DNA from: Roseococcus sp. SDR
GTDB lineage: Bacteria > Pseudomonadota > Alphaproteobacteria > Acetobacterales > Acetobacteraceae
Reading direction: 5' to 3'
Assembly (NCBI RefSeq): GCF_019083995.1
Contig: NZ_JAHRCU010000013.1
Location: 62,001-126,000, forward strand
Length of the DNA: 64,000 nt
In this document: in pieces, positions 3,187 through 64,000 of the stretch
How positions within the stretch are numbered: the first letter of the stretch is position 1
Layout: every line of letters begins with the position of its first letter
Notes under the pieces: model-generated
The model's database searches: none
Told to the model about the DNA's origin: nothing
The model's input: the letters and a program-made list of their open reading frames with translations, nothing else
Program-made: the position numbers and the translations under genes

Positions 3187-3275
3187 TGGCGCCTCATGGG
3201 TTTCCTCCGCCACTCTGCCGGATCGCGCCCCGGGTGGCATCCCGCCCGGGCCCGTTTCGGGCTATGCTGCGCCGC

Positions 3276-5210
3276 ATGAACGATGCCGAGACCAAGCCAC
3301 CCGCCAAGGGACCCACCAAGGCGAAGGAAAAGCCCAAGGCGCCCCAGCCACCGCGGCTGCGCTGGCTGCGCCGGGCGCTGTTCACGCTCGCCGGCCTCGT
3401 CCTCTTCCTCGGAAGCCTTCCCCTCGCTGCCTGGTTCCTGCTGCCGCGCTTCGACCTCGCCGGGATCGCGGCCGAGCAGGCCAGCGCGCGCCTCGGCCGT
3501 GCCGTCACCATCGAGAGCCTGCGCATCACGCCCGGCAGGCATCTCGGCATCGCGGTCAGCGGCGTCACCATCGCCAATATCGAGGGCGGCACGCGGGCCG
3601 AGATGCTCCGCCTTGACCATGCCAGCGCCGAGCTCGACCTGATGGACCTGCTGGCTGGCGAGGTTGCCCTGGGCCAGGCCGCGTTCCAGGGGCTTTCCCT
3701 GCTGCTGGAGCGCAATGCCGGGCGCGCGGCCAATTGGCAGTTCGGCCCGTCCGGCCCATCGAGCGGCGCCCGTCCCTGGGTTCCGCGTTTCGACGCGCTG
3801 CGCGCCACCGGGGCGGAAATCCTGTTCCGCACCTCCAGCGGCCAGACGCTCACCACGCGGATCGAGACGGCAAGCCTGACCTCCGAGGGTCTGCACGCGC
3901 CGCTGCGCCTCAGCGCCGCCGGCAGCTACAACAATGTGCCCCTCACCCTTGAGGGGCCGCTCGACAGCATCGCCGCCTTGCGCGACGCGAGCGCCCCGTT
4001 CAGCCTGGATCTCACCGCTACCGCCGGCGAGACGACGCTTGCCCTCCTCGGCTCCGCGCGCGATCCACTGGGGCTCGACGGCGTGCAGGGGCAGGTCGAG
4101 CTGCGCGCCGCCACTCCGGATGCGCTGCTGGCGCTGGGTGGGGCAGCGGTCGAGGGCGTGCCGCGCATCGCCCTCGAACTCTCCGGCACCCTGGATCGGC
4201 AGGGCGATGTCTGGCGCATCGGTGCGCCGTTCGGGCAACTGGACGGCGCGCCCTTCACCGGCCGCCTCTTGCAGCTGACAGAAGGCGCGCGCGGCCAGCC
4301 CGACGCCATCCTGCTCGACCTCGCGCTGACGCGGCTCGACCTCAACCGTGTGCTGCGCGCGGGCGGGCACGAGGTGGATGGCGTGGCGGACCTGCCGCTC
4401 GCCGTCTTTGCCGCGCCAGACCCGCTCATCGAGCTGCGCCTCTCTGCCGAGGCCTTCACCTACGGCGCGTTGGACGCGCGGGATGCCCGGCTGGAGGCAA
4501 GGCTGGTTCCGGGCCAGGTGCGCGTGCCCACGCTCGCCATGCAGGCCTTCGGCGCGCGCATCAGCGCGAGTGGCCTGCTGGAGGCGGATGACGAGGATCT
4601 TCGGATCACCGCCGATGTGACCATGGGTGAGGCCGATCTGGAGCCACTGCGCCGCGCGCTCGCCCTGCGCGAACTTCCACTCTCCGGCCGCGTCGAGGGA
4701 CGGCTCGCCATCACCGCGCAGGGGCGCAGCCTGAACGCGGCCGCGCGGGAGGCGCAGGTCTCCGCCGTCCTGCTCATGTCCGGCGGCTCCATCGCGCGGG
4801 AGGTGATCGAGATGGCCTCGACCGACATCCGCTCCCTGTTCCGGACGGCGCGCGGGCGCACGCGGCTCTCCTGCGCCATCGGCGTGCTCGACATGAAGGG
4901 CGGCGTGGGGGAACTCGCACCGCTGCGCCTGCGCTCCGCCCAGGGCATGATCAGTGGCCTTGCGACCTTCGATCTCAACCGCCACCGGCTCGATCTCGTC
5001 ATCGGCAGCCACCGCCAGACGACGGGCAGCTTCGCGCTCGACATCCCGGTGCGGGTCAGCGGCAGCTTCGAGGACCCCGGCGTTCAGCCGGCGCAGTGGT
5101 CGAGCGCGGGCCGGGCACGGCTCTCCGCGCCGGACCACATGGCGCCGATCCCGCCCGCGCTGCGCGATTACGCGCGCCGCAGCCCTTGCTTCTTCGCCGG
5201 TGGGCGCTGA
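3276..5210 (+). CDS. AsmA-like inner-membrane protein
   Basis: A 644-residue AsmA-family protein. A basic, lysine-rich N-terminus (about residues 1-35) is followed by one membrane anchor (about 36-60, RRALFTLAGLVLFLGSLPLAAWFLL) and a long periplasmic beta-rich region. The N-terminal AsmA signature FDLAGIAAEQASARLGRAVTI comes directly after the anchor, and the AsmA_2-like C-terminal part contains SGGSIAREVIEMASTDIRSLF and an RSAQGMISGLATFDL segment. AsmA-like proteins are thought to help move or balance lipids between inner and outer membranes. The start at 3276 (MNDAETKPP) was preferred over longer in-frame starts because those reach into the divergent RidA promoter; the ribosome site is weak either way. 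Confidence 0.8.
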   Translation: MNDAETKPPAKGPTKAKEKPKAPQPPRLRWLRRALFTLAGLVLFLGSLPLAAWFLLPRFDLAGIAAEQASARLGRAVTIESLRITPGRHLGIAVSGVTIANIEGGTRAEMLRLDHASAELDLMDLLAGEVALGQAAFQGLSLLLERNAGRAANWQFGPSGPSSGARPWVPRFDALRATGAEILFRTSSGQTLTTRIETASLTSEGLHAPLRLSAAGSYNNVPLTLEGPLDSIAALRDASAPFSLDLTATAGETTLALLGSARDPLGLDGVQGQVELRAATPDALLALGGAAVEGVPRIALELSGTLDRQGDVWRIGAPFGQLDGAPFTGRLLQLTEGARGQPDAILLDLALTRLDLNRVLRAGGHEVDGVADLPLAVFAAPDPLIELRLSAEAFTYGALDARDARLEARLVPGQVRVPTLAMQAFGARISASGLLEADDEDLRITADVTMGEADLEPLRRALALRELPLSGRVEGRLAITAQGRSLNAAAREAQVSAVLLMSGGSIAREVIEMASTDIRSLFRTARGRTRLSCAIGVLDMKGGVGELAPLRLRSAQGMISGLATFDLNRHRLDLVIGSHRQTTGSFALDIPVRVSGSFEDPGVQPAQWSSAGRARLSAPDHMAPIPPALRDYARRSPCFFAGGR

Positions 5211-5273
5211 CGGGGAGGGGGGCCTGCTCCGGCCGGGAGTGCGCAGCACCGCACCGCCCGCCTTACAACCTGC

Positions 5274-5660
5274 TCAGCAGCCTGCGATGATGACCTGGCA
5301 GGCCGCGCCCGCACCGCAGACGCGCCGCGCCTCGCGCTCCGCATCGTCCAGTTCGATGCCGAAGCCGGCCGAGACCTGGCCGTCGGGCGCCACATAGCGG
5401 CGCTTGAAGGCCGTCCAGTCCTCCGGCAGCGGCGCCGTCTCGCGGCCCGCCGCGGCCTGGATCCGCAGGATGGGCGGGGCGGGGAGCCGGGGTGGTGCGG
5501 TGACGATCACGGAAGGATCCTGCAGGCTGGCTTCGCGGGCCCTGGCGGCGGCATCTCGGCCACGATCCTGTCCGGCGGGGGCCGGGGCCACCTTGAGCGG
5601 CCGGAAGGCCGTCGGATTTTTCTCAAGGTGTGTGGCGTTCCCGCCACCGCACGGCCGCAA
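5274..5660 (-). CDS. Hypothetical protein, proline/alanine-rich with a C-terminal CxxxxxC
   Basis: I do not recognise this 128-codon frame. It has a proline-rich middle (PSVIVTAPPRLPAPPILRI), a region DWTAFKRRYVAPDGQVSAGFG and a C-terminus with three cysteines (RRVCGAGAACQVIIAGC). Its first codon lies inside the 3' end of the Bug gene at 5623, so it could be coupled to that operon as its last cistron; internal GTG starts are also possible. Absence of a clear signal peptide from the listed start leaves location open. The AsmA gene converges on it with a 63-base gap. Coding status is supported only by the open frame and a plausible amino-acid composition. Confidence 0.4.
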   Translation of the reverse strand: MRPCGGGNATHLEKNPTAFRPLKVAPAPAGQDRGRDAAARAREASLQDPSVIVTAPPRLPAPPILRIQAAAGRETAPLPEDWTAFKRRYVAPDGQVSAGFGIELDDAEREARRVCGAGAACQVIIAGC

Positions 5661-6600
5661 GCCACGTCAGGTCCTGGCCCTTGAGGTAGTCGTGGAAGCC
5701 CTCGCGCCGCACCGTCGTGGGCGTGATGGCGAGGGGCGCCAGGATCTGGCGCGTCGCTTCGGCGCGCATCACCGCGGTGCTCGTGCGACAAAGGCGCTCC
5801 AGGATGAGTTCCGGGGTCCTGGCTGGCGCGAAGAGGGCGAAATCCGTCGTCACGGCGAAACCGGGCAGGCCGCTCTCCGCAATGGTCGGCACCTGGCGCA
5901 GAGGCTCCGCGCGCGCCGCCGAGGAGACGGCCAGCGGCCGCAGACCGCCGCCCGCGATGCGGGGGATGGCGGTGACGAGGTCGATGAAGGCGAACTGCAC
6001 CTGGTCCTGCAGCACCGCGTGCATCGCGGGCGCGCCGCCGCTGAAGGTGATGTGCTGGAAGCGGAGATCGAAGCCCTTGGCGAAGAGTTCCACCGCGAGG
6101 TGATTGATGACGCCGATGCCGGCCGAGCCGTAGCGCAGCCGCTCGGGCGCGAGCCGCGCGGCCTCCACCAGGTCCTGCAGGGTATGGAACCTGGAGCCGG
6201 TATGCACGCAGAGCACCATCGGCGTGCTGGCGACGAGGCAGACGGGGGCGAAGTCCCGCTCGATCACGAGCGGCGTATCCAGGTAGTGAGCCGCCATGGC
6301 GAAGGTGCTGTTCGGGCTGAGCACCAGGCGGTGGCCGTCGGGTGCCGCGCGCGCCACATCCGCCATGGCCGCGAGGCCGCTCTCGCCCGTGATCACCTCG
6401 ATCCGAAAGGGCTGGCCCAGAATGGCCGCGAGGCGCCGCGCCAGGATCTGGGCCACGAAATGGGTGGCGCCGCCCACCGCGAAGGGCACCACCAGCGTGA
6501 CCGGGCCCGTGGGATAGGCATCCACCGCGTGCGCGGCTGCGGGAAGCAGGAAGGGTGCGGCAAGCAAGGCGCGACGCGGCACGGGCAGGGGGTGGGACAT
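5623..6600 (-). CDS. Bug-type periplasmic solute-binding receptor (TTT family)
   Basis: A 325-residue receptor of the tripartite tricarboxylate transporter type. It has a signal peptide (MSHPLPVPRRALLAAPFLLPAAAHA), then the Bug fold: YPTGPVTLVVPFAVGGATHFVAQILA at the first ligand loop, AAPDGHRLVLSPN, a YGSAGIGVINHLAVELFA second-lobe loop and QVPTIAESGLPGF near the C-terminus. Such proteins bind carboxylates in the periplasm and deliver them to TctAB permeases or to sensor kinases. No tctA or tctB is nearby, so transport by this locus is unlikely unless a distant permease is shared. It is the last clear gene of a three-gene operon, starting 3 bases after the dCache stop codon. Confidence 0.9.
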   Translation of the reverse strand: MSHPLPVPRRALLAAPFLLPAAAHAVDAYPTGPVTLVVPFAVGGATHFVAQILARRLAAILGQPFRIEVITGESGLAAMADVARAAPDGHRLVLSPNSTFAMAAHYLDTPLVIERDFAPVCLVASTPMVLCVHTGSRFHTLQDLVEAARLAPERLRYGSAGIGVINHLAVELFAKGFDLRFQHITFSGGAPAMHAVLQDQVQFAFIDLVTAIPRIAGGGLRPLAVSSAARAEPLRQVPTIAESGLPGFAVTTDFALFAPARTPELILERLCRTSTAVMRAEATRQILAPLAITPTTVRREGFHDYLKGQDLTWLAAVRWRERHTP

Positions 6601-6603
6601 CGT

Positions 6604-7341
6604 CTACGCTCCAGTCAGGACGGCCAGCTGCCATCCGAAGGAAGGGGTGTCGGCGCGCTGGGGCACCGGGATGCGGGGCGAACGGCCGAGCCGCTCGGCG
6701 GGGATGCCTTCGGGCGCCAGCAGGACCTCGCCGCGGGCCGAGACCAGCGCGATGGGCACACCGACATGGGCTTCCTCGCGCCGGATCACGCCCACCACCC
6801 AGTCCCAGAGGATATGCGAGCCGATCATCGCGACGATCGTCCCGTCGCGGTCGCGGATGGGCGAGACGAAGTCGATCAGCCGAAGCATGCCTTGCGCGGC
6901 GCTGCGGTTCAGCGCGCGCTGCAGCAGCACGGCATCATGAACGTCCACCGCCGCGTCGTGCCGCGTGCCTGCCGTGCACCAGGGGCGCTGCGTGACGTCA
7001 TCGCCCTCCAGCCGTCGCCGCGTGGTTGCCAGCACCCGACCATCGGCGACGGTCGCGACGCCGATCCAGATGATGTGAGGCGCATTGTCATGCGCCGTAT
7101 CGAGGATGAAGCGCAGTTCCTCGGCATCCTGGGGCGGCCAGAACTCCTGCACCGAGCGCGCGACCCACTGCTGGTGATCCCATTGCCGGTCGAGGAGGAT
7201 GGCGATGCGCGCGGCGATGCCGGCCGGGTCGCGTTGGCTGCCGGGCAAGGGCGCGAGGGCTGCGGTCTGGGCTTGCGCCTCGGCGGCGAGGGCGCCGAGC
7301 GCTGCGCCGAGCAGCGCCGTGCGGCGGGTCGTGGCCATCAT
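6604..7341 (-). CDS. Stand-alone secreted dCache-like sensor domain protein
   Basis: A 245-residue secreted protein made of one extracellular sensor domain. The N-terminus TTRRTALLGAALGALAAEAQA is a signal peptide with a Tat-like twin arginine. The rest matches a double-Cache ligand-binding fold: a long first helix with QWVARSVQEF, then IIWIGVATVADGRVLATT, the GDDVTQRPW motif (family: R-x-W/Y that contacts ligands), IDFVSPIRDRDGTIVAMIGSHIL and a second-lobe strand PIALVSARGEVLLAPEG. Cache domains are nearly always fused to membrane receptors; here there is no transmembrane segment after the signal peptide and no output domain. The ATGATG start overlaps the upstream Bug stop, and another Bug gene starts 3 bases downstream. 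Confidence 0.75.
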   Translation of the reverse strand: MMATTRRTALLGAALGALAAEAQAQTAALAPLPGSQRDPAGIAARIAILLDRQWDHQQWVARSVQEFWPPQDAEELRFILDTAHDNAPHIIWIGVATVADGRVLATTRRRLEGDDVTQRPWCTAGTRHDAAVDVHDAVLLQRALNRSAAQGMLRLIDFVSPIRDRDGTIVAMIGSHILWDWVVGVIRREEAHVGVPIALVSARGEVLLAPEGIPAERLGRSPRIPVPQRADTPSFGWQLAVLTGA

Positions 7342-8318
7342 CGCGGCCGCTCCATCGTGGTGATGTCCAACTGGCGGATCAATGAGAGCCAGGGCCGGTT
7401 CTCCGCCTCGAAATAGGCTGGGAAGGCGGCGCGCGTGCCCCCCATGGGCTCGACGCCGATGGGCGCCAGCAAGGCCCGCACATCCGCGCCCGAGAGTGCC
7501 GCGATGCTGGCCTCGGATAGCCGCGCCAGGGCTTCATCCGGCGTACCCGCGCGCGCGAAAAGGGCGAAATCGGTGGCGACCTCGAAGCCCGGCAAGCCGG
7601 CTTCGGCCAGGGTGGGGACCTCGGGCAACTGGGCCGCGCGTGCGGCCGCGGCGATGCCCAGCGCGCGCAGGCGACCGCCATGGACGAAGGGGACGGCCGC
7701 GCCCAGCTCCAGCAGCGCGAACTCGGCATCGCCCCTGTCCAGCGCTTCGAGCCCGGGCAAGGCGCCGCTGACCAGGACGCTGGTCAAGCTGATCTCGAGT
7801 ATATCGGCCAGCAACAGCGTAGGCAGGTGATAGGCGTGCGGCGTGACGTAGCGCAGCGCGCCCGGGGCGGCCAGCGCCGTCCGGGTCAGCTTCGTGAGGC
7901 TGGTAAGCGGCGAGCCGGCGGGCACGCACAGAACGAGCGGCGTACGCGCAACCAAGCCGATAGGCGCCAGCCCCGATGTGAAGTCGAAGCGGCAGGAGAG
8001 GATGTTCATCGTGATCGCGTAGAGCCCATTCGTCGCGAGCAGCAGGGTTCGCCCATCCGGCGCCGCCTCACCTGCGTAGCAGGCGCCCGAGAGGCCGCTC
8101 TGCCCTGGCCGGTTCTCCACGACGACCGGTTCGCCCAGCAGGCGGGAGAGGCGCACGCCCAGCAGACGGCCGACGAAATGGATCGGCCCGCCCGAGGCAT
8201 GCGGCACCACGATCGTGATCGGCCGCTGCGCGGCCGGGTTCGTCCCTGTAGATTGCGCAGGCAGGACAAGCGGAGGGGATCCGGGCACCGTGCCCGTCAG
8301 CCGCCGACTGATGAGCAT
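7338..8318 (-). CDS. Bug-type solute-binding receptor (TTT family), first gene of operon
   Basis: A 326-residue Bug-family receptor: RPITIVVPHASGGPIHFVGRLLG as the first ligand loop, VVVENRPGQSGLSG, AAPDGRTLLLATNG, and ELPEVPTLAEAGLPGF-like sequence near the C-terminus. Start ATG 8318 is preceded by GGAG at a spacing of 8. From this start the leader (MLISRRLTGTVPGSPPLVLPA) is a poor signal peptide with a weak hydrophobic core; an upstream TTG at 8375 would add a hydrophobic segment but lacks a clear ribosome site, so the true N-terminus is uncertain. It overlaps the dCache gene by a stop/start junction and diverges from the HD-GYP regulator across 193 bases. Confidence 0.88.
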   Translation of the reverse strand: MLISRRLTGTVPGSPPLVLPAQSTGTNPAAQRPITIVVPHASGGPIHFVGRLLGVRLSRLLGEPVVVENRPGQSGLSGACYAGEAAPDGRTLLLATNGLYAITMNILSCRFDFTSGLAPIGLVARTPLVLCVPAGSPLTSLTKLTRTALAAPGALRYVTPHAYHLPTLLLADILEISLTSVLVSGALPGLEALDRGDAEFALLELGAAVPFVHGGRLRALGIAAAARAAQLPEVPTLAEAGLPGFEVATDFALFARAGTPDEALARLSEASIAALSGADVRALLAPIGVEPMGGTRAAFPAYFEAENRPWLSLIRQLDITTMERPR

Positions 8319-8511
8319 GGGTGCAACTCCGCTGACTGCCTGCGTAATGATCGTGAACACTGTCGCAGAAAACAAACGAAAGCAGCGGCCTCTTCATCCG
8401 ACTTTTGTCGAGCGAGGCGCGCCGGCCCTGTTTCTTGCGGGCCCGACATGAGAGGAAGGTTGCTGGACAGTCCGGTCCTTTGGCCGGGCAAGAAAGGATG
8501 CCCCGGCGGCG

Positions 8512-9675
8512 ATGAGCCCTGAAACCCGGCCTGCCGATGATGCGGCGACGATCCTTGTCGTGGATGACGTCCCGCAGAACCTGCTCCTGCTGGGTGAATT
8601 GCTGCAGCCCCACTATCACGTCCGCGCCGCCAATTCCGGCGAGCGCGCACTGCGCGTGGCCCGCAGCGAGCCGCGCCCCGATCTCGTCCTGCTCGACGTG
8701 ATGATGCCCGGCATGGATGGCCATGCGGTTCTGCGCGATCTGCGTGCCGATCCGGCCACGCGGGACATTCCCGTCATCTTCGTCACCGCGCTCGACGACG
8801 CCGCCGACGAGGAGCAGGGTCTCAGCCTCGGCGCGGTGGACTACATCACCAAGCCCATCGCTCCCCCGGTGGCGCTGGCCCGGGTGCGCACGCACCTCGA
8901 ACTCGCCCGCGCCCGCCGGCGCCTCGCCGCGCAGAACGAGTGGCTGGAGGGGGAGGTGCATCGCCGCACGGCGGAGACACGGCTGATCCAGGAGTTCTGC
9001 ATCCGGGCGCTGGCCTGCCTGAGCGACACGCGGGACAAGGAGACGGGGCGCCACATCATCCGCACCCAGGCCTATGTGGGCATCCTCGCGCGCCACCTCG
9101 CGGGCCACCCGCGCTTCGCCGCCGCCCTCGCGGGGCGCCGGCTCGAGATGGTCGTGCATGCTGCGCCGCTGCACGACATCGGCAAGGTCGGCATCCCCGA
9201 TGCCATCCTGCGCAAGCCGGGTCGCCTGACGGCCGAGGAGTACGCGGTCATGAAGACCCATGCGCAGATCGGCGCGCATGCGATCGAGGCCGCGATGGAG
9301 CAGGCGCTGGCGGAGGCGGATGAACTCGCGGCGGAGCAGGCCGAAGGGGCGCTCGCCTTCCTGCGCACCGCGCAGGAGATCGCGCTGGCGCATCACGAGA
9401 AATGGGACGGCTCGGGCTATCCCTATGGCCTGGCAGGGGAAGACATTCCGGTCTCGGCGCGGCTCATGGCGCTGGCCGATGTCTTCGATGCACTCACCAC
9501 GCGGCGGGTGTACAAAGCCTCCATGAGCATCGAGGAGACGACGCGCCTCATCATCGAGGGGCGAGGCGTGCATTTCGACCCGGACGTGGTCGAGGCCTTC
9601 CTTGCCTGCCGTGACGCCTTCATCGCCGTGGCACAGCGCATGCCCGACGCGCCGGAGGGCGCGGCGGTCGCATGA
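8512..9675 (+). CDS. Receiver-HD-GYP response regulator (c-di-GMP phosphodiesterase)
   Basis: A 387-residue response regulator. Residues 13-130 form a receiver domain with acidic pocket VVDD, phospho-acceptor Asp62 in VLLDVMMPGMDG, FVTA and a conserved lysine in ITKPI. After a coiled linker comes an HD-GYP domain (about 160-370) with the HD pair at 221-222 (HDIGKVGIPDAIL), HHEKWDGSGYP at about 294-304 and DVFDALTTRRVYK. All expected catalytic residues are present, so it should cleave c-di-GMP when phosphorylated. It lacks a DNA-binding output. The gene precedes the hybrid kinase by 25 bases, making the kinase the obvious phosphate source, and lies opposite the Bug-dCache operon. Confidence 0.93.
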   Translation: MSPETRPADDAATILVVDDVPQNLLLLGELLQPHYHVRAANSGERALRVARSEPRPDLVLLDVMMPGMDGHAVLRDLRADPATRDIPVIFVTALDDAADEEQGLSLGAVDYITKPIAPPVALARVRTHLELARARRRLAAQNEWLEGEVHRRTAETRLIQEFCIRALACLSDTRDKETGRHIIRTQAYVGILARHLAGHPRFAAALAGRRLEMVVHAAPLHDIGKVGIPDAILRKPGRLTAEEYAVMKTHAQIGAHAIEAAMEQALAEADELAAEQAEGALAFLRTAQEIALAHHEKWDGSGYPYGLAGEDIPVSARLMALADVFDALTTRRVYKASMSIEETTRLIIEGRGVHFDPDVVEAFLACRDAFIAVAQRMPDAPEGAAVA

Positions 9676-9700
9676 GGGTGTCCGGCCGCGGCGCGATGCC

Positions 9701-12700
9701 ATGAAAGGGCGCTGGCCGCGCCTGCCGCGCTACTCCCTCATCTTCCTGCTGCCGATGATGGCGGCGCTCCTGGCGCTGGGCCTCATCAACCAGTACCACT
9801 ACCGGAACATCCAGCACTCCCAGGCGGCCTACGTCGCCACCCAGGCCGAAGGCCTTGACGCTCTGACCGCCGTCGCCCGGTTCAACAGCAACCTGTCGGA
9901 ACTTCATCGGCGCGTGATGCTGGAACTGGCCGGCGCCGGCCGCACCGACGGCCGGGAGGCCGACCCATCGAGCGAGGCGCTGGCCCAGGAACTCTCGGCA
10001 CTGACCGAACGGGCCGGGCGCCTGGAGGAGATCGCGGCCCGGCTCGGGGATCACCTTCCCCTGATGCCGCGCCTTGAGGCCTATCGTACAGCCCTGCGCG
10101 CGGCGGCCGATCCATCCAGCCTCCGGCCACCGGCTGCACAACGCGCCATCGCCCTGGCCGAAGCGCGCTTCGCGGACGTCACGAGCGTCACCAACGCGCT
10201 GCTTGCCGCCGCCTCGGCCGAGGTGCTGCGCCGCTCCGAGGCGGAGGCCCTGGCGCTGGAGGCGCTCTCCGGCCAGCTCACCCGCATCCGCGCGGGGGTC
10301 GTCACCTGCTTCCTGGCCTTTTGGCTGCTCTTCGCCTGGCTGCTCACGCGCTCGCTGCGCCGCCTGACCGAAGTGCTGCGCCGGCTTGCCGGCAGCGAGG
10401 CGGCGCCCGCGCGCATGCCGGAGGTGGAGGCGCTGGCCGCCAGCCGCTCCGGCCTGTTGCGCGACATCGCCCTGGCCGCCGTGGCCTTCCGGGACGCGCT
10501 CGCGGCGCGCGAGGCGACGACGGCAGAGCTGCACGAGCGCATGAAGGAGCTGTCCTGCCTCTACGACACCACCCGCCTCACCGACCGGGCCGACCTGACG
10601 ATCCCGGCGATGCTGGAGGCGGTGGCCGCCCGGCTGCCGGCCGCCATGCGCCACCCGTCCGCTGCCCTCGGCAGCATCGAGCACGCCGGCGTCCTGCATG
10701 GGCGACGGGCCGAGGGGCCCACGCTCGGCGTCACCTTCCCCGGTGCGGATGGGACGGAGGGCGTGGTCCGCGTCACCTATGGGGGCCCGCTCCCGCCCGG
10801 GCTCGACGAGGCCTTCCTGCCCGAGGAGCGCATGCTCCTCGAAGCCGTCGCCGAGCGCCTGGGGGCCGCCATCGAGCGCCGCCGCGCGGCCATGGCCGAG
10901 GCCGACAGCCGCAACCTCTTCTCCGCCGTCGTCAACGAGGCGCCGCTCGCGATCGAGATCGTGGATGCCGAGACGCTGCGCTTCGTGCAGGTGAACGACG
11001 CCTCCTGCCGGCTGCTCGGCTACACGCGCGACGAGTACCGGCGGATGACGCCGGCCGACATTCAGGCTTCGCCGCCCCCGGACGGCTTCGAGGCCCTGGC
11101 GCGCCAGATCCGCGAAGCCGGCGGCGCACGCTTCGAGACGCAACACCGCCACAAGGGAGGCGCTGTTCTGGATGTGCAGGTGAACATCCAGATGATCCGC
11201 CAGCGCGACCGGGAATACTTCCTCGCGATGTGGGAGGACATCACCGAGCAGAAGCGCCAGGAGGAACGGCTACGCAGCCTCGTGCGCGCGGTGGAGCAGA
11301 GTCCGGCCAGCATCGTCATCACCGATGTCCATGGCTGCATCGAATACGTGAACGAGACCTTCGAACGCACCACGGGCTACCGACGGGACGAACTGATCGG
11401 CGAGAATCCGCGCATCCTGCAATCCGGCCAGACACCCTCCTCGGTCTTCGAGGAGATGTGGGAGAAGCTGCCGCAGGGCGAGACCTGGCGGGGCGAGCTG
11501 GTGAACCGCCGACGCGACGGCAGCCTCTACATCGAGGCGGCGGTCATAGCGCCCATCCGCCGGCCGGACGGCGCCATCAGCCATTTCGTCGGCGTGAAGG
11601 AGGACATCACCGCAACCCGCCAGATGGCGGTGGAGCTGGAACGCCACCGCAGCCACCTCGAGGAGCTCGTGGCAGAGCGCACGGCCGAATTGCTGAGCGC
11701 CCGCCAGGCCACCGAGGCGCTGGGGCAGGATTTCTTCCGCGTGCTCGACCGCTCGCCCGACCTGATCGCGCTGAAGGGCCGCGACCTGCGCCTCAAAGCC
11801 TGCAGCCGTGCCTTCGTCGAGCTGGCGGGCAAGGCCAGCGCCGAGGATATGGTGGGCCGGACGGCGGAGGAGAGCTTCCCGGACGAAGTGATCTCGATCG
11901 TCAGGGCCGATGAGGAGGCGCAGCTCGCCGCCGGAGACGCGGTACGCAGCATGGAGCGCATCCTGCCGCATCCCGACGGCACCCGCCGGCTCTACAGCAT
12001 CACCCGGACCATGCTGCGCGACGCGGATGGCGCCTTCGACGGGTTCCTGGTGATCGGCCGTGACATCTCGGCGCGCGCCGCGGCCATGGAGGCCCTGGCC
12101 CGCAAGGAGGAAGAGGAGCGCCTGCTGCTGGAGAGCAGCTCCAACGGCATCGTCGGCGTGGGGCCGGATGGATGCATCACCTTCGCGAACCAGGCGGCGG
12201 CGCGCCTCCTCGGCCATCCGGAGCCGGGCGTGCTGGCCGGCCTGCCGGCGCAGCGGGTCCTGCAGCCGCGCCGCGCGGATGGCACCGATGACGATTCAGG
12301 CGAGGGCGCGATCCATCGCGCCCTGACGCAAAACGCGCCGATGTCGAGCGGGGAGGAGGTGTTCTGGCGGGCCGACGGCACGCCGCTCGCCGTCTCCTGC
12401 TCGGTCGCGCCGATCCTGCATGGCACCGCGGTGCTGGGGGCGGTGATCTCCTTCGAGGATATCGGCGGCCGCAAGCTCGCCGAGGCCGAGCTGCGCCGCG
12501 CCAAGGCGGAGGCGGAGGCGGCGAGCCGCGCCAAGAGCGAATTCCTCTCCAACATGAGCCACGAGATCCGCACGCCGATGAACGCCATCATCGGCTTTGC
12601 GCACCTGCTCCGCCGCGGCTTGCAGGAGCCCCGCCAGCAGCAGCAGGTGGGACGCATCACCGACGCCGCGCACCACCTGCTGAACATCATCAACGACATC

Positions 12701-14644
12701 CTGGACCTCTCGAAGATCGAGGCTGGCAAGATCGAGCTGGAGCAGGCGGACATCGTGGTGGAGCGCGTGGTGGAGCGCGTCTGGGCGCTGGTGCGCGACA
12801 AGGCGGAAGCCAAGGGGCTTGAGCTGCTGGTCGATCTGCATGAGCTGCCGCCGGTGTTGCTGGGCGACGAGCTGCGCCTCAGCCAGATCCTGCTGAACTT
12901 CGCCTCCAACGCGGTCAAGTTCACCGATGCGGGGCACATCGTCCTCAGTGGCCGGGTCGCGCGCCGGACGGCCCATGGGCTGGTCGCGCGCTTTGAGGTG
13001 GCGGACACGGGCATCGGCATCTCACCCGAGCAGCAGGCGCAGCTCTTCGAGCCCTTCCAGCAGGCCGACGCCTCCACCACGCGCCGTTACGGCGGCACCG
13101 GCCTCGGCCTCTCGATCTGCCATCGGCTGGCAGGGCTGATGGGCGGCGAGGTGGGCGTGGAGAGCGCGACGGGTGAGGGCAGCGTCTTCTGGGTGGAGGT
13201 GCCGGTGGGCGAGGCGCCGGTCGCTTCCCCCGGCGCCGAGCCTTCGCCGCTGACCGGGCAGCGTGCCCTGGTGGTGGATGACGTGCCGGAGGCGCTGGAG
13301 GCGATGGCAGGCACGCTGCGCGCGCTCGGCCTCGCCGTCACCGCGACGGGCAGCGGCGAGGATGCGCTGACGCGGCTGAACGAAGCCGATGCGGCCGGCA
13401 CGCCCTTCAATGTCGTGCTCGTGGATTGGCTGATGCCAGGGATGGATGGCCTGGAGCTCTGTCGTCGCCTGGGGGGGCTGCCCCTCGCCCGGCGGCCGCG
13501 CTGTATCCTGGTTTCCGCCGAATCAGATGCCGTTTCCCCCGCAACCGCCCTGCAGGCGGGGTATGAGGCGGTGCTGGCCAAGCCGCTCGTGCCCTCGCGC
13601 CTCGCCGCCGCTCTTCTGCCGCCGGCGCAGGAGGCCCCGCTCAGCCCCACACCGCCGCGCTTCCCCGGACAGCGCGTCCTGCTGGTGGAGGACAACCCGG
13701 TGAACGAAGAGGTGGCGACGGCGCTGCTCGAGGATGTCGGCCTCCTCGTGGAGGTTGCGCGGGATGGCGCCGAGGCCGTGCAGCGCGCCGCCGCCGCCGA
13801 TTACGACCTCATCCTGATGGACGTGCAGATGCCGGTGATGGATGGCCGCGCCGCCACGCGGGCCATCCGCGACCTGCCGCGCCACGCGCGGACACCGATC
13901 CTGGCGATGACGGCCAATGCCTTCCTGGAGGACCGCCGCGCCTCGCTGGAGGCCGGCATGAATGATCACCTGGTGAAGCCTGTGAACCCGGCCGCACTGC
14001 ATGGCGCGCTGGCACGCTGGCTGCCGGCACAGGGCGCCGGAAGCTCGGCACCCCGGCCGGCGACGGCGGCGCTGCCCGTGGTGGCGGGGCTCGACATGGC
14101 GGCCGGTCTCAAGGCCAGCAATGGCCAGCCCAGACTCTACCGCCGCGTCCTGGAGATCTTCCTGCACAGCACGGATGTCGCTGCGCTGCAGGCCGGACTG
14201 GTCGCCGGCGATGTGGCGGCGGCGCGTCGCGCGGCGCATTCCCTGAAAGGGGCCGCGGCGACGGTCGGGGCGACCACGCTGCGCGATGGGGCAGCCTCGC
14301 TGGAAGCCGACCTGGCGCAGGGGGACGCCGTGCTGGAGAGGTTGCAGCCGCGCGCGGCCGCGCTCGAGATGGAACTGGCCGCGCTGAAGTCACGTCTGGC
14401 CGCCGCCCTGGCGGAGGAAGCCGTCCCTGGGCTGGCCTGCCCGGCGGCTCCGGCTCCGCCGGAGCTGATCGGTCAGCTCATGGCGTTGCTTGAGGCGAAC
14501 GACATGGCGGCGCTCGCCCTCTTCCATGCGCATGAGCCCTCGCTGCACGCGAGCCTCGGCCCGTCCGCGCTGGAGATCGGGCGCCAACTCGACAGCTTCG
14601 CCTTCGAAGAGGCACTGGCCGTGCTGCGGCAGGTTCACGCCTGA
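9701..14644 (+). CDS. Hybrid histidine kinase: TM-periplasmic-TM-HAMP-GAF-PASx4-HisKA-HATPase-REC-REC-Hpt
   Basis: A very large (1647-residue) membrane-bound phosphorelay kinase. TM1 is about 11-31 and TM2 about 200-219, enclosing a roughly 170-residue helical periplasmic loop with no recognisable Cache or PAS fold. After a HAMP-like linker come a degenerate GAF-like segment (about 285-395) and four PAS domains (starting about 405, 527, 680 and 803). HisKA carries His954 ([12 protein letters not shown]); the ATPase has [17 protein letters not shown] and GGTGLGLS boxes. Two receivers follow, with phospho-Asp 1242 and 1374 and their lysines intact, then an Hpt domain with His1513 (AHSLKG). Start ATG 9701 was chosen over a TTG-like upstream extension because TM1 then lies at the N-terminus. 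Confidence 0.93.
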
Positions 14645-14655
14645 GGCGCGGCGGG

Positions 14656-15885
14656 TCAGGCCGGCCGCACCAGGACGTGCTTCTTCTTGCCCGCCGAGAG
14701 TTTCGCCGCGCCATCGCGCAGATCGGCCATCGTGACTGCAAGCGCCGCATCGGTCACTGGCGCGTCGTTCAGCCGCACGCCGTTCTGCGCCACCAGGCGC
14801 CGCGCCTCGCCCTTGCTGGCCGCGAGGCCGGCGCTGACCATGAGGTCGGCGATCGCGGCCGGGAGCGCTTGCGTGATGGTGGGCAGGCTCTCGGCCGCGG
14901 CGCCTTGCTCGAAGGCCAGGCGCGCCGTCTCGGCCGCTGCCTCGGCGGCGGCGCGGCCATGCAGCAGGGCGCAGGCTTCCGTCGCCAGGATCTTCTTCGC
15001 CTCGTTGATCTCGGAGCCCTGCAGCGCGCCCAGGCGCCGCACCTCGTCCATCGGCATGTCGGTGAAGAGGGCGAGGAACTTGCCCACATCGGCGTCCTCG
15101 GCGTTGCGCCAGAACTGCCAATAGTCATAGGGGCTCACGCGGTCGGCGTTCAGCCAGACCGCACCCGCCGCCGTCTTGCCCATCTTGGCGCCCGAGGCGG
15201 TGGTGATGAGCGGCGCGGTGATGCCGAAGGCGTCCGCCTGATCCATGCGGCGCACCAGGTCGGCGCCCATGACGATGTTGCCCCATTGATCGCTGCCGCC
15301 CAGCTGCAGCGTGACACCATGGCGGCGGCGCAGCTCCACGAAGTCGTAGCTCTGCAGCAGCATGTAGTTGAACTCGATGAAGGTCAGCGGCTGGTCGCGA
15401 TCGAGCCGCAGCTTCACGCTGTCCATGCTCAGCATGCGGTTCACGCTGAAATGCCGCCCCACCTCGCGCAGGAAGGGGATGTAGCGCAGCGGATCGAGCC
15501 ATTCGGCATTGTCGAGCATGATGGCCGTGCCCGGCCCGTCGCCGAAGGTGAGGAAGTTGGTGAAGGCGGTGCGGATGCCGGCCTTGTTCTGCTCGATCTT
15601 CTCCTCGGTCAGGATCTGGCGCGTCTCGTCGCGGCCCGAAGGATCGCCGATCTTGGTCGTGCCGCCGCCCATCAGCACCACGGGCCGGTTGCCGGTCTTC
15701 GCCAGCCAGCGCAGCAGCATGATCTGCACGAGATGGCCGACATGCAGGCTGTCCGCCGTCGCGTCGAAGCCGATATAGCCGGCGACCGGGCCCTTGGCGA
15801 AATGCTGGGCGAGGGCCGGCTCGTCCGTCACCTGATGGACGAAGCCGCGCTCGCGGATGACGGAGAGAAAGTCGGAGGCTGACAT
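14656..15885 (-). CDS. tyrS: Tyrosyl-tRNA synthetase
   Basis: A 409-residue class I aminoacyl-tRNA synthetase that charges tRNA-Tyr in the cytoplasm. The HIGH-type motif is LHVGH in [14 protein letters not shown]; the substrate loop is [12 protein letters not shown]; the KMSKS-type motif is KMGKT. A C-terminal S4-like RNA-binding domain (about residues 345-409, [18 protein letters not shown]) is complete. Length is normal for bacterial TyrS. ATG 15885 ([14 protein letters not shown]) matches the family N-terminus; longer in-frame starts would run into anmK. It converges with the hybrid kinase gene, 11 bases apart, and diverges from anmK across 49 bases. Confidence 0.97.
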
Positions 15886-62276: not shown

Positions 62277-63254
62277 TCAGCTGCGTGCCAGGCCGGCCGC
62301 TTTCATCGCGTCGCCGAGGGAGGCGTCGGCGGCGGCGAGGTGGCGGGCGAAGCCGTCGGCATCGGCGTAGCTCATGCCGAAGCCGCGGTTGTTCATGAAT
62401 TCGCTGTATTCGGCCGAGCGGAAGACGCGGCCCAGGGCGGCGTTCATGGTGGTGCGGGCTTCGGCCGGGATGTTGAGCGGGCCTGCGATGCCGCGCCAGG
62501 CGCCGGTCGCGTAGTCGATGTTCATCGCCTCCTTCAGCGTCGGGATGTTCGGGAAGGCGCCGAGGCGTTCGTTGGACATGACGGCGAGCGCGCGGGCGCG
62601 GTTCGCGTCCAGCATGGCGCGGGCTTCGACGACGGAGTTGGTGGTGAAGTCGAGGCCGCCGGCGGCCAGGTCCTGCATGGCCGGCGCCGCGCCGTTGGAG
62701 GGCACCCAGCGGACGTGGTTGGCGGGCAGGCGCATGGCCATGAGCCAGCCGGCAAGCGCGAGGTGCCAGATGCCGCCCTGGCCGGTGCCGCTGGATTTCA
62801 GCTGGCCCGGGCGGCTCGTGCGGATGGCCTCGGCGAGTTGACCGACGTCGCGGTAGGGTGCGTTGACATTGACCTGGATCCCCGGCGGGTCGTTGTTCAT
62901 GAGCGCGAGCGGCGTGTAGTTGCGGAAGGTGAGTTCGGTCAGGCCCTGCCAGTGCAGCATGCAGATTTCGGCCGTGATCATGCCGAGCGTGTAGCCATCG
63001 GGCGCGGCTTGCGCGATGGCGGCGTGGCCGACGACGCCCGAGCCGCCGGTGCGGTTGATCACGTTGAAGGGCTGGCCCAATTCCTTCTCCAGCAGGTTCG
63101 CGATGATGCGCACCACGGCATCGGTGCCGCCACCGGCCGCCCATGGGCAGAGGAGTTGCACCGGGCGCACCGGCCAGCGCGGCTGGGCGAGCGCGGGGGC
63201 GGCGATCAGGGCCGGCGTGGCGCCGAGGATGAGGCGGCGTGAGGTGATGATCAT
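62277..63254 (-). CDS. Bug-type periplasmic receptor next to tctA
   Basis: A 325-residue Bug receptor, the only one in the window adjacent to a permease subunit gene. Signal peptide MIITSRRLILGATPALIAAPALA (twin arginine). Motifs: RPVQLLCPWAAGGGTDAVVRIIANLLE, INRTGGSGVVGHAAIAQAAPDGYTLGM, SSGTGQGGIWHLALAGWLMA, VRWVPSNGAAPAMQDLAAGGLDF and FPNIPTLKEAMNIDYATGAW. The W-A-A-G-G-G-T-D variant of the ligand loop is typical of TctC proper. GGGAG lies 7 bases before ATG 63254. It follows tctA by 31 bases and is probably its dedicated receptor. Confidence 0.93.
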   Translation of the reverse strand: MIITSRRLILGATPALIAAPALAQPRWPVRPVQLLCPWAAGGGTDAVVRIIANLLEKELGQPFNVINRTGGSGVVGHAAIAQAAPDGYTLGMITAEICMLHWQGLTELTFRNYTPLALMNNDPPGIQVNVNAPYRDVGQLAEAIRTSRPGQLKSSGTGQGGIWHLALAGWLMAMRLPANHVRWVPSNGAAPAMQDLAAGGLDFTTNSVVEARAMLDANRARALAVMSNERLGAFPNIPTLKEAMNIDYATGAWRGIAGPLNIPAEARTTMNAALGRVFRSAEYSEFMNNRGFGMSYADADGFARHLAAADASLGDAMKAAGLARS

Positions 63255-63285
63255 GTCGTGTCTCCCTAGATGTTGCTGTGTTGGT

Positions 63286-64000
63286 TCAGGCAGGCGAACG
63301 GCGCCGTGACAGGCGCATCCAGATCCAGGCAAGGAGCGGCCAGAGCAGCGCGCTGAAGGTCAGCGCCGCGAGAAAGGAGGAGACGGGCCGCTCGAAGAAG
63401 GGCAGCACATCGCCGTCGGACTTGATGAGGCTGGTGACGAAGTTCTGTTCCAGCATGCTGCCCATGACGATGCCGAGCACGAGGGCGGCGACCGGATAGC
63501 CGTTCTTCTCCATGACGAAGCCGAGCACGCCGAAGAGCGCCACCAGCAGCACGGCGAAGAGGTTGTTGCCGGTGGCGAAGGAGCCCACGGCGCAAAGCAG
63601 CAGGATCACCGGCATCACGGCCGAGCGCGGCGCGCGCAGCACGGTGGAGGCGGCACGGATCATCATGATGCCAAGCGGGATCATGATGATGTTGGCCAGG
63701 ATGAAGATGATGTAGAGCGCGTACATGGACGAGGCCCGCTCGGTGAAGAGCGTGGGCCCAGGGTTGAGCCCCTTCATGTAGAGCACACCGATGGCGATGG
63801 CGGTGATGGTGTCGCCGGGGATGCCGAAGAGCAGGGAAGGGACCCAGCCCGAGGCGAGCGAGGCGTTGTTGGAGGCACCGGCCTCCACCAGGCCTTCCGG
63901 GTGGCCGGTGCCGAATTTCTCCGGCTCCTTCGAGAATTTCTTCGCCATCGCATAGCTGACCCAGGCCGCCATGTCGGCGCCCGCTCCGGGCAGCACGCCG
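63286..64000 (-). CDS. tctA: Tripartite tricarboxylate transporter large membrane subunit (5' end outside window)
   Basis: The C-terminal 237 residues of a TctA permease, the large membrane subunit that moves a carboxylate with a cation in partnership with TctB and TctC. GVLPGAGADMAAWVSYAMAKKFSK with PEGLVEAGASNNASLASGWVPSLLFGIPGDTITAIAIG is the conserved TctA loop (second P-G-x-G repeat). Helices MYALYIIFILANIIMIPLGIMMI, AVMPVILLLCAVGSFATGNNLF and SSFLAALTFSALLWPLLAWIWM follow. The start and any tctB lie beyond base 64000. It is followed by a dedicated Bug/TctC gene. Confidence 0.93.
   Translation of the reverse strand, partial: GVLPGAGADMAAWVSYAMAKKFSKEPEKFGTGHPEGLVEAGASNNASLASGWVPSLLFGIPGDTITAIAIGVLYMKGLNPGPTLFTERASSMYALYIIFILANIIMIPLGIMMIRAASTVLRAPRSAVMPVILLLCAVGSFATGNNLFAVLLVALFGVLGFVMEKNGYPVAALVLGIVMGSMLEQNFVTSLIKSDGDVLPFFERPVSSFLAALTFSALLWPLLAWIWMRLSRRRSPA

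Follow-up and report, generated by a model that had tools for sequence, protein, structure and literature searches.

Cache domains have been described chiefly as components of kinases, chemoreceptors, and cyclases. Here we analyze a locus of Roseococcus sp. SDR in which a double Cache (dCache) protein is encoded on its own, between two genes for periplasmic binding proteins of the Bug (TctC) type; this leftward operon lies opposite a rightward pair of genes for a REC-HD-GYP response regulator and a hybrid histidine kinase (Table 1). The window is the whole 64,000-nucleotide stretch analyzed (G000:C13:62001-126000), G000 being the 5.0-Mb genome that contains it and other G numbers the genomes of the family that were compared. 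Signaling from a Bug protein to a sensor kinase is already known, and excerpts of two reports describe citrate-loaded BctC of Bordetella acting on BctE (PMC9602780, PMC5812351). As in the window, the Bug gene of BctC/BctDE lies beside a two-component system, but the Bordetella Bug has a second role in a tripartite transporter encoded alongside, whereas no transporter gene of this kind was seen beside the window operon. The window further differs in its dCache protein, a lost GH8 gene, output through HD-GYP, and a kinase with a predicted four-helix sensor. Stand-alone sCache_heme proteins, described as atypical in an excerpt of a preprint (PMC12889525), resemble the window protein in having a Cache domain without output; the window protein, however, belongs to the dCache type and groups with dCache-HAMP proteins, and no CXXCH motif could be seen in its sequence by eye. 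Loci of such dCache-HAMP proteins share an HlyD-GT2 gene pair with the mixed-linkage β-glucan operon bgsBA of Sinorhizobium and Rhizobium etli (HlyD-like BgsB and GT2 enzyme BgsA). They differ from it by the addition of an output-less dCache-HAMP gene and sometimes GH8, whereas the window itself has no synthase at the locus. The GT2 of one of them (G016) was mostly about 40% identical to Sinorhizobium records among the matches listed (two were about 34%), records that are not shown to be BgsA.

According to the original prediction, the two Bugs and the soluble dCache protein are ligand-loaded partners of the periplasmic loop of the kinase and so control cyclic di-GMP (c-di-GMP). The five genes that it named were found at their positions with the expected domains (two Bugs, a cache-like protein, REC-HD-GYP, and hybrid kinase). 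We arrive at another reading, to which we give about an even chance of being correct: the block is a composite, eroding island in which an exported arm derived from an exopolysaccharide locus lies beside an independent kinase/HD-GYP arm that would be expected to lower c-di-GMP, the two arms acting in parallel. Linkage in relatives should be checked first because a plausible signaling operon may be an eroded composite of this kind. Among the genomes searched, the whole block occurred only in the window genome and a close relative, G015. The sensor region of the kinase was found only in the same two genomes (2 genomes in a set of 147 and 2 in the 397 of the family, with the best candidates per genome scored, for example 12 or 13), and linkage between Bug genes and the kinase was therefore not kept beyond close kin; the flanks of the block are syntenic in G000 and G015 anyway. 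G014, from the same genus, has the order dCache-Bug-Bug-GH8-SBP_8-DUF4189 among different neighbors with no kinase on the 9.5-kb contig, and a search of this genome (88% complete, 7% contaminated) found neither the kinase sensor region nor a close homologue of the HD-GYP protein. A decayed copy of the exported module without the kinase is present in G005, whose assembly is also 7% contaminated.

The kinase arm also occurs by itself. Adjacent genes for a REC-HD-GYP protein and a hybrid kinase were free of Bug and dCache genes in all four loci inspected (G121 and plasmids of Azospirillum ramasamyi, Aquabacterium olei, and Tistrella mobilis), and the HD-GYP proteins of the plasmid pairs are 54-57% identical to that of the window. 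A DNA search matched 99 plasmid records, of which 15 were listed; the three loci were chosen from these 15, all of which match the HD-GYP part only. Two of the homologous kinases carry a binding-protein domain in cis, an SBP_bac_3 domain in G121 (L027:9585-15445) and, by annotation, another in Tistrella (L176). These cis domains suggest sensor exchange.

In G015 the leftward operon is longer and runs Bug2, dCache, Bug1, GH8 (PF01270), SBP_bac_8, DUF4189, and a PAS-HisKA kinase. Compared with G015 DNA, the window has a gap of about 3.0 kb near 5378-5391 and another of about 1.5 kb at 5259-5272; DNA matches pair window 3351-5258 with L022 24-1935 and window 5273-5391 with L022 3466-3584. The protein encoded by the open reading frame (ORF) at 5274-5591 matches G015 GH8 over 46 aa and G015 DUF4189 over 38 aa. 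Because this ORF joins remnants of both genes, we read the gaps as two deletions in the window, which lost the GH8 glucanase, the SBP_8 protein, DUF4189, and the PAS kinase. The PAS-kinase gene is present in both G015 and G019. The island of G019 is wrecked (L028:3955-7864): it has lost the exported genes and retains only broken remnants of the HD-GYP and kinase genes, whereas the PAS kinase is intact. The block is bordered by genes that we take to be AsmA-like and TyrS-like, and these lie directly side by side in G006, G008, and G001 and about 1 kb apart in G012. Given these empty sites, a single insertion in the G000/G015/G019 clade appears to account for the block; the island would have entered once between the two genes and would now be eroding, with two separable modules sharing a divergent intergenic region.

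The cache protein (6604-7341) has a twin-arginine-like leader and, as had been predicted, no output domain. A crude hydropathy scan flagged one stretch, at residue 168, which falls within the conserved Cache core, and the G015 homologue was not flagged. By itself the window sequence does not reach the dCache family: it scored 12.7 bits (E=0.09) against Pfam dCache_1, below the cut-off of 45, and a PDB search with it alone returned a single meaningless match. The assignment holds through its relatives. Homologues from G457 (46.7 bits) and G446 (59.9 bits) passed the cut-off, dCache_1 was detected at E<=0.01 in all of the 12 aligned proteins except that of the window (11 of 12), and a profile of the dCache relatives matched the ligand domain of PctA (E=1e-4). 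A low-confidence model of the protein (predicted local distance difference test, pLDDT, 57), used as corroboration only, had its best Foldseek matches mainly among the sensor domains of KinD, PctC, CqsR, and LuxQ, presumably all dCache folds, with one match at E<0.001. Judged by these comparisons, the window protein is homologous to the dCache superfamily.

Each genome with the soluble form gave a single match, G000, G015, and G014 at E<=1e-5 and G457 at E<=1e-15. A maximum-likelihood tree of 23 chosen rows placed the four soluble proteins in one clade (support 100/99). This clade grouped at 100/97 with output-less dCache-HAMP proteins, of which there were nine, and was separated from the 10 dCaches included for comparison. 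Five of the latter have GGDEF and four have kinase domains; the row from G023 was shortened by the gene caller and no output domain was seen. In a second tree of 30 chosen rows, with seven plasmid proteins added, the soluble clade was kept (99/99), grouped with synthase-linked rows (100/98), and fell among Acetobacteraceae dCache-HAMPs at moderate support (85/88 and 81/93), while one Azospirillum row fell with the comparison group. Fusion to GGDEF or kinase domains is seen only among more distant dCache relatives, the nearest being without an output domain. In the alignment the soluble form ends at the last Cache strand, where the membrane relatives continue into the second transmembrane helix; it lacks the two membrane helices and HAMP of the dCache-HAMP family and is cut at a domain boundary. 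The earlier idea that a sensing domain had been detached is thus upheld, in that the dCache domain was apparently released from a membrane receptor. The window would show the ligand domain of such a receptor turned into a secreted protein.

In nine Acetobacteraceae genomes (G016, G427, G446, G362, G180, G423, G332, G262, and G151), genes for dCache-HAMP proteins adjoin a pair encoding HlyD and a cellulose-synthase-like GT2. As a control, HlyD or GT2 relatives were present in 0 of 11 loci with other dCache proteins (L029-L039). The survey behind these loci gave matches in 28 genomes: G000 and G015, which are the block itself, 10 others from which 12 places were fetched, G016, G023, G031, and G056, which were also fetched, and 12 that were left out. 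Genes in fetched loci were called with a simple in-house script and not a standard gene finder. Both HlyD and GT2 occurred in 5 of 6 plasmid loci chosen by dCache similarity, a non-random sample picked from 15 listed of 53 records with rows annotated as diguanylate cyclase skipped. Among six chosen by GT2 similarity, also non-random (from 40 listed of 78), four had an annotated cache gene and our in-house comparison recognized 2 of these 4 as kin. GH8 was found in 4 of the 12 chosen plasmid loci, once as a fragment, and it also adjoins a Bug of the exported module in G015 and G014. No description of dCache-HlyD-GT2 loci was found in the open-licence literature searched. We consider output-less dCache receptors coupled to polysaccharide synthases to be the best lead and the part worth pursuing, and the presence of a conserved output-less Cache-HAMP gene next to that of a cellulose-synthase-like enzyme points to a receptor that works either on the synthase or via a further partner. 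A bolder version, which we hold only tentatively and consider unlikely, is that the dCache-HAMP family acts directly on the HlyD-GT2 synthase throughout alphaproteobacteria and that one lineage secretes the ligand domain, which together with GH8 and binding proteins reports glucan fragments and, in the island, is coupled to a kinase/HD-GYP pair that turns c-di-GMP-dependent synthesis down. Alphaproteobacterial loci with dCache-HAMP, HlyD, and GT2 genes are L157-L164, L168-L172, L180, and L181, and an annotated cache gene lies near an HlyD-GT2 pair on plasmid At of Agrobacterium fabrum C58 (L177) and in Sulfitobacter (L179).

The REC-HD-GYP protein retains the HD and GYP motif residues by eye and matches Pfam HD_5/HD. 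From these motifs it should be a c-di-GMP phosphodiesterase, in keeping with the c-di-GMP link originally drawn. The periplasmic part of the kinase (about 165 residues) had been described as lacking a recognizable sensor fold, a view that did not stand: prediction from a single sequence gave a four-helix bundle of long helices, with pLDDT of 74-92 in blocks and 55 in one. Upper Foldseek matches include the four-helix ligand domains of QseE, PcaY_PP, Adeh_2942 (target TM 0.69), KinB, and MCP2201. These matches indicate a fold class and not a family because every one has E>0.05 and unrelated helical bundles are mixed in. The kinase is thus predicted from the model to have a sensor domain of its own.

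The leftward genes are coupled, with a 4-bp overlap (7341/7338) and a 3-bp gap (6604/6600). Both Bugs exceed the curated TctC cut-off of 27 bits (Table 1), and Bug1 is 84% identical to its G015 homologue. The leader of Bug2 has a hydropathy of 0.79 from the ATG at 8318 or 1.68 from the TTG at 8375, compared with 1.28-2.09 for 11 other Bugs, and its glycine-rich loop is missing, as in the G015 and G014 homologues. Of the predicted trio of coupled exported proteins, the coupling was confirmed and Bug1 and the cache protein have twin-arginine-like leaders, whereas export of Bug2 is doubtful. TctC genes number at least 150 in the window genome (150 scored of 203 candidates), as against five for TctA. 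With so many TctC genes, Bug neighbors are to be expected, and we dropped Bug adjacency as evidence for partnership.

Between G000 and G015, the ratio of nonsynonymous to synonymous substitution rates (dN/dS) was 0.18 for Bug1, 0.23 for the dCache gene, 0.22 for Bug2, 0.10 for the HD-GYP gene, and 0.23 for the kinase (0.38 for its periplasmic part); the flanking AsmA-like gene and tyrS gave 0.20 and 0.08. By this measure both arms are under purifying selection. We propose that the left arm descended from a β-glucan-type exopolysaccharide locus, one where an output-less dCache-HAMP receptor is encoded next to HlyD and a GT2 resembling cellulose synthase. This arm consists of the soluble dCache protein and two Bugs, to which fuller relatives add a GH8 glucanase, an SBP_8 protein, and DUF4189. 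Its most likely ligands, bound in the periplasm, would be small acids or glucan fragments. In the right arm, the kinase would sense through its own four-helix ligand domain and pass phosphate via its internal relay to the REC-HD-GYP protein. The latter is expected to break down c-di-GMP and thereby to reduce polysaccharide production that depends on this messenger. Because c-di-GMP activates the β-glucan synthase BgsA, as stated in an excerpt of one report (PMC9495663), both arms could affect polysaccharide output in parallel. The arms, which share the region 8319-8511, are probably co-regulated and act on the same process. A promoter and terminator scan of 5000-9800 found no promoter-like site, with no sigma-70-like site in 8319-8511, and one terminator-like site compared with 1.2 expected.

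Several observations weigh against a composite island with a glucan-related exported arm. Three places in G426 with dCache matches show no HlyD or GT2 relatives, and in the 19 kb retrieved for G457 the soluble dCache is accompanied by neither GH8 nor Bug. The gene for the soluble form has no synthase as a neighbor in the window, G015, G014 (a short contig), or G457, the rest of the window genome not having been searched for an HlyD-GT2 pair. Placement of the soluble proteins within the synthase-linked group depends on the forks with support of 85/88 and 81/93, and HAMP was detected at E<=0.01 in only 6 of 8 membrane forms scanned. An extracytoplasmic role for the GH8 of the exported module is uncertain because it has no obvious leader by eye. 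The missing kinases of G014 and G005 are weak evidence because both assemblies are imperfect. Finally, G015 and the window have retained both modules side by side at dN/dS 0.10-0.23, which could reflect functional coupling.

In the original docking model, the two Bugs and the soluble dCache protein dock ligand-loaded on the periplasmic domain of the kinase, which controls the HD-GYP protein. Divergent adjacency in G000 and G015 and purifying selection are consistent with it, BctC provides a precedent, QseE (the top fold match of the kinase loop) was deposited in complex with the lipoprotein QseG, and homologous kinase/HD-GYP pairs have binding-protein domains in cis. We nevertheless consider docking improbable and rejected it as the best reading: linkage is not kept beyond close kin, the exported module occurs without the kinase in G014 and G005 and kinase pairs occur without the module, the dCache lineage groups with exopolysaccharide loci, Bug2 has lost its ligand loop and has a doubtful leader, and the kinase has a predicted four-helix sensor of its own. 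A role for the exported proteins as kinase partners is thus unsupported, and in the composite-island reading contact between the arms is not needed to explain the locus. The same separability would also fit two unrelated modules that came together at one insertion site with nothing functional in common. The abundance of Bug genes and the piecemeal deletion of the island in the window and G019 favor this possibility, which we regard as real but doubtful; both arms are nonetheless conserved at the dN/dS ratios given above, and a glucan-linked arm next to a predicted c-di-GMP hydrolase makes functional sense. It is very improbable, in our view, that the exported arm is a functionless remnant in the window genome after the loss of GH8, SBP_8, and DUF4189. 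The two deletions, the altered Bug2 leader, the further decay in G019, and the decayed copy in G005 point that way, but all three reading frames are open and their dN/dS is 0.18-0.23, even if these values may in large part date from before the deletions.

Table 1. Features of the island and its borders (window coordinates)
Feature	Coordinates	Strand	Remarks
Bug1, TctC/Bug-type periplasmic binding protein, 325 aa, twin-arginine-like leader	5623..6600	-	PF03401 161.8 bits
Soluble exported dCache protein, 245 aa, stops at last Cache strand, no output domain	6604..7341	-	
Bug2, divergent TctC/Bug protein, doubtful leader, glycine-rich ligand loop gone	7338..8318 (ATG; TTG 8375 possible)	-	PF03401 129.9 bits
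Divergent intergenic region common to both arms	8319..8511	none	
REC-HD-GYP response regulator, 387 aa	8512..9675	+	Pfam Response_reg, HD_5, HD
Hybrid histidine kinase, 1647 aa: TM1, ~165-residue periplasmic domain, TM2, PAS repeats, HisKA, HATPase, REC, REC, Hpt (TM, transmembrane helix)	9701..14644	+	
Scar ORF, GH8 N-terminal remnant fused to DUF4189 C-terminal remnant	5274..5591	-	
Second deletion junction, PAS-kinase gene lost	5259..5272	none	
AsmA-like flanking gene (presumed name), left border of island	3264..5210	+	adjoins tyrS in G006, G008, G001
TyrS-like flanking gene (presumed name), right border of island	14656..15885	-	

Elsewhere in the window, a Bug gene lies beside a TctA gene that runs off the window end (62277-63999; TctA match G000:C13:125475-126734), apparently forming a tripartite transporter. 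A GH8 glucanase gene followed by an orphan SBP_8 gene is a recurring pair, found in G000, G015, G014, G012, and G020 and in five copies in G006. The G000 copy (L098:8009-10422, on G000:C1) has a Bug gene upstream, and other copies are in L099-L106. In G006, a very long GT2-like gene (1555 aa according to the in-house caller) is located near a GH8 gene and a gene that we take to be BcsQ-like (L117:187-8574).

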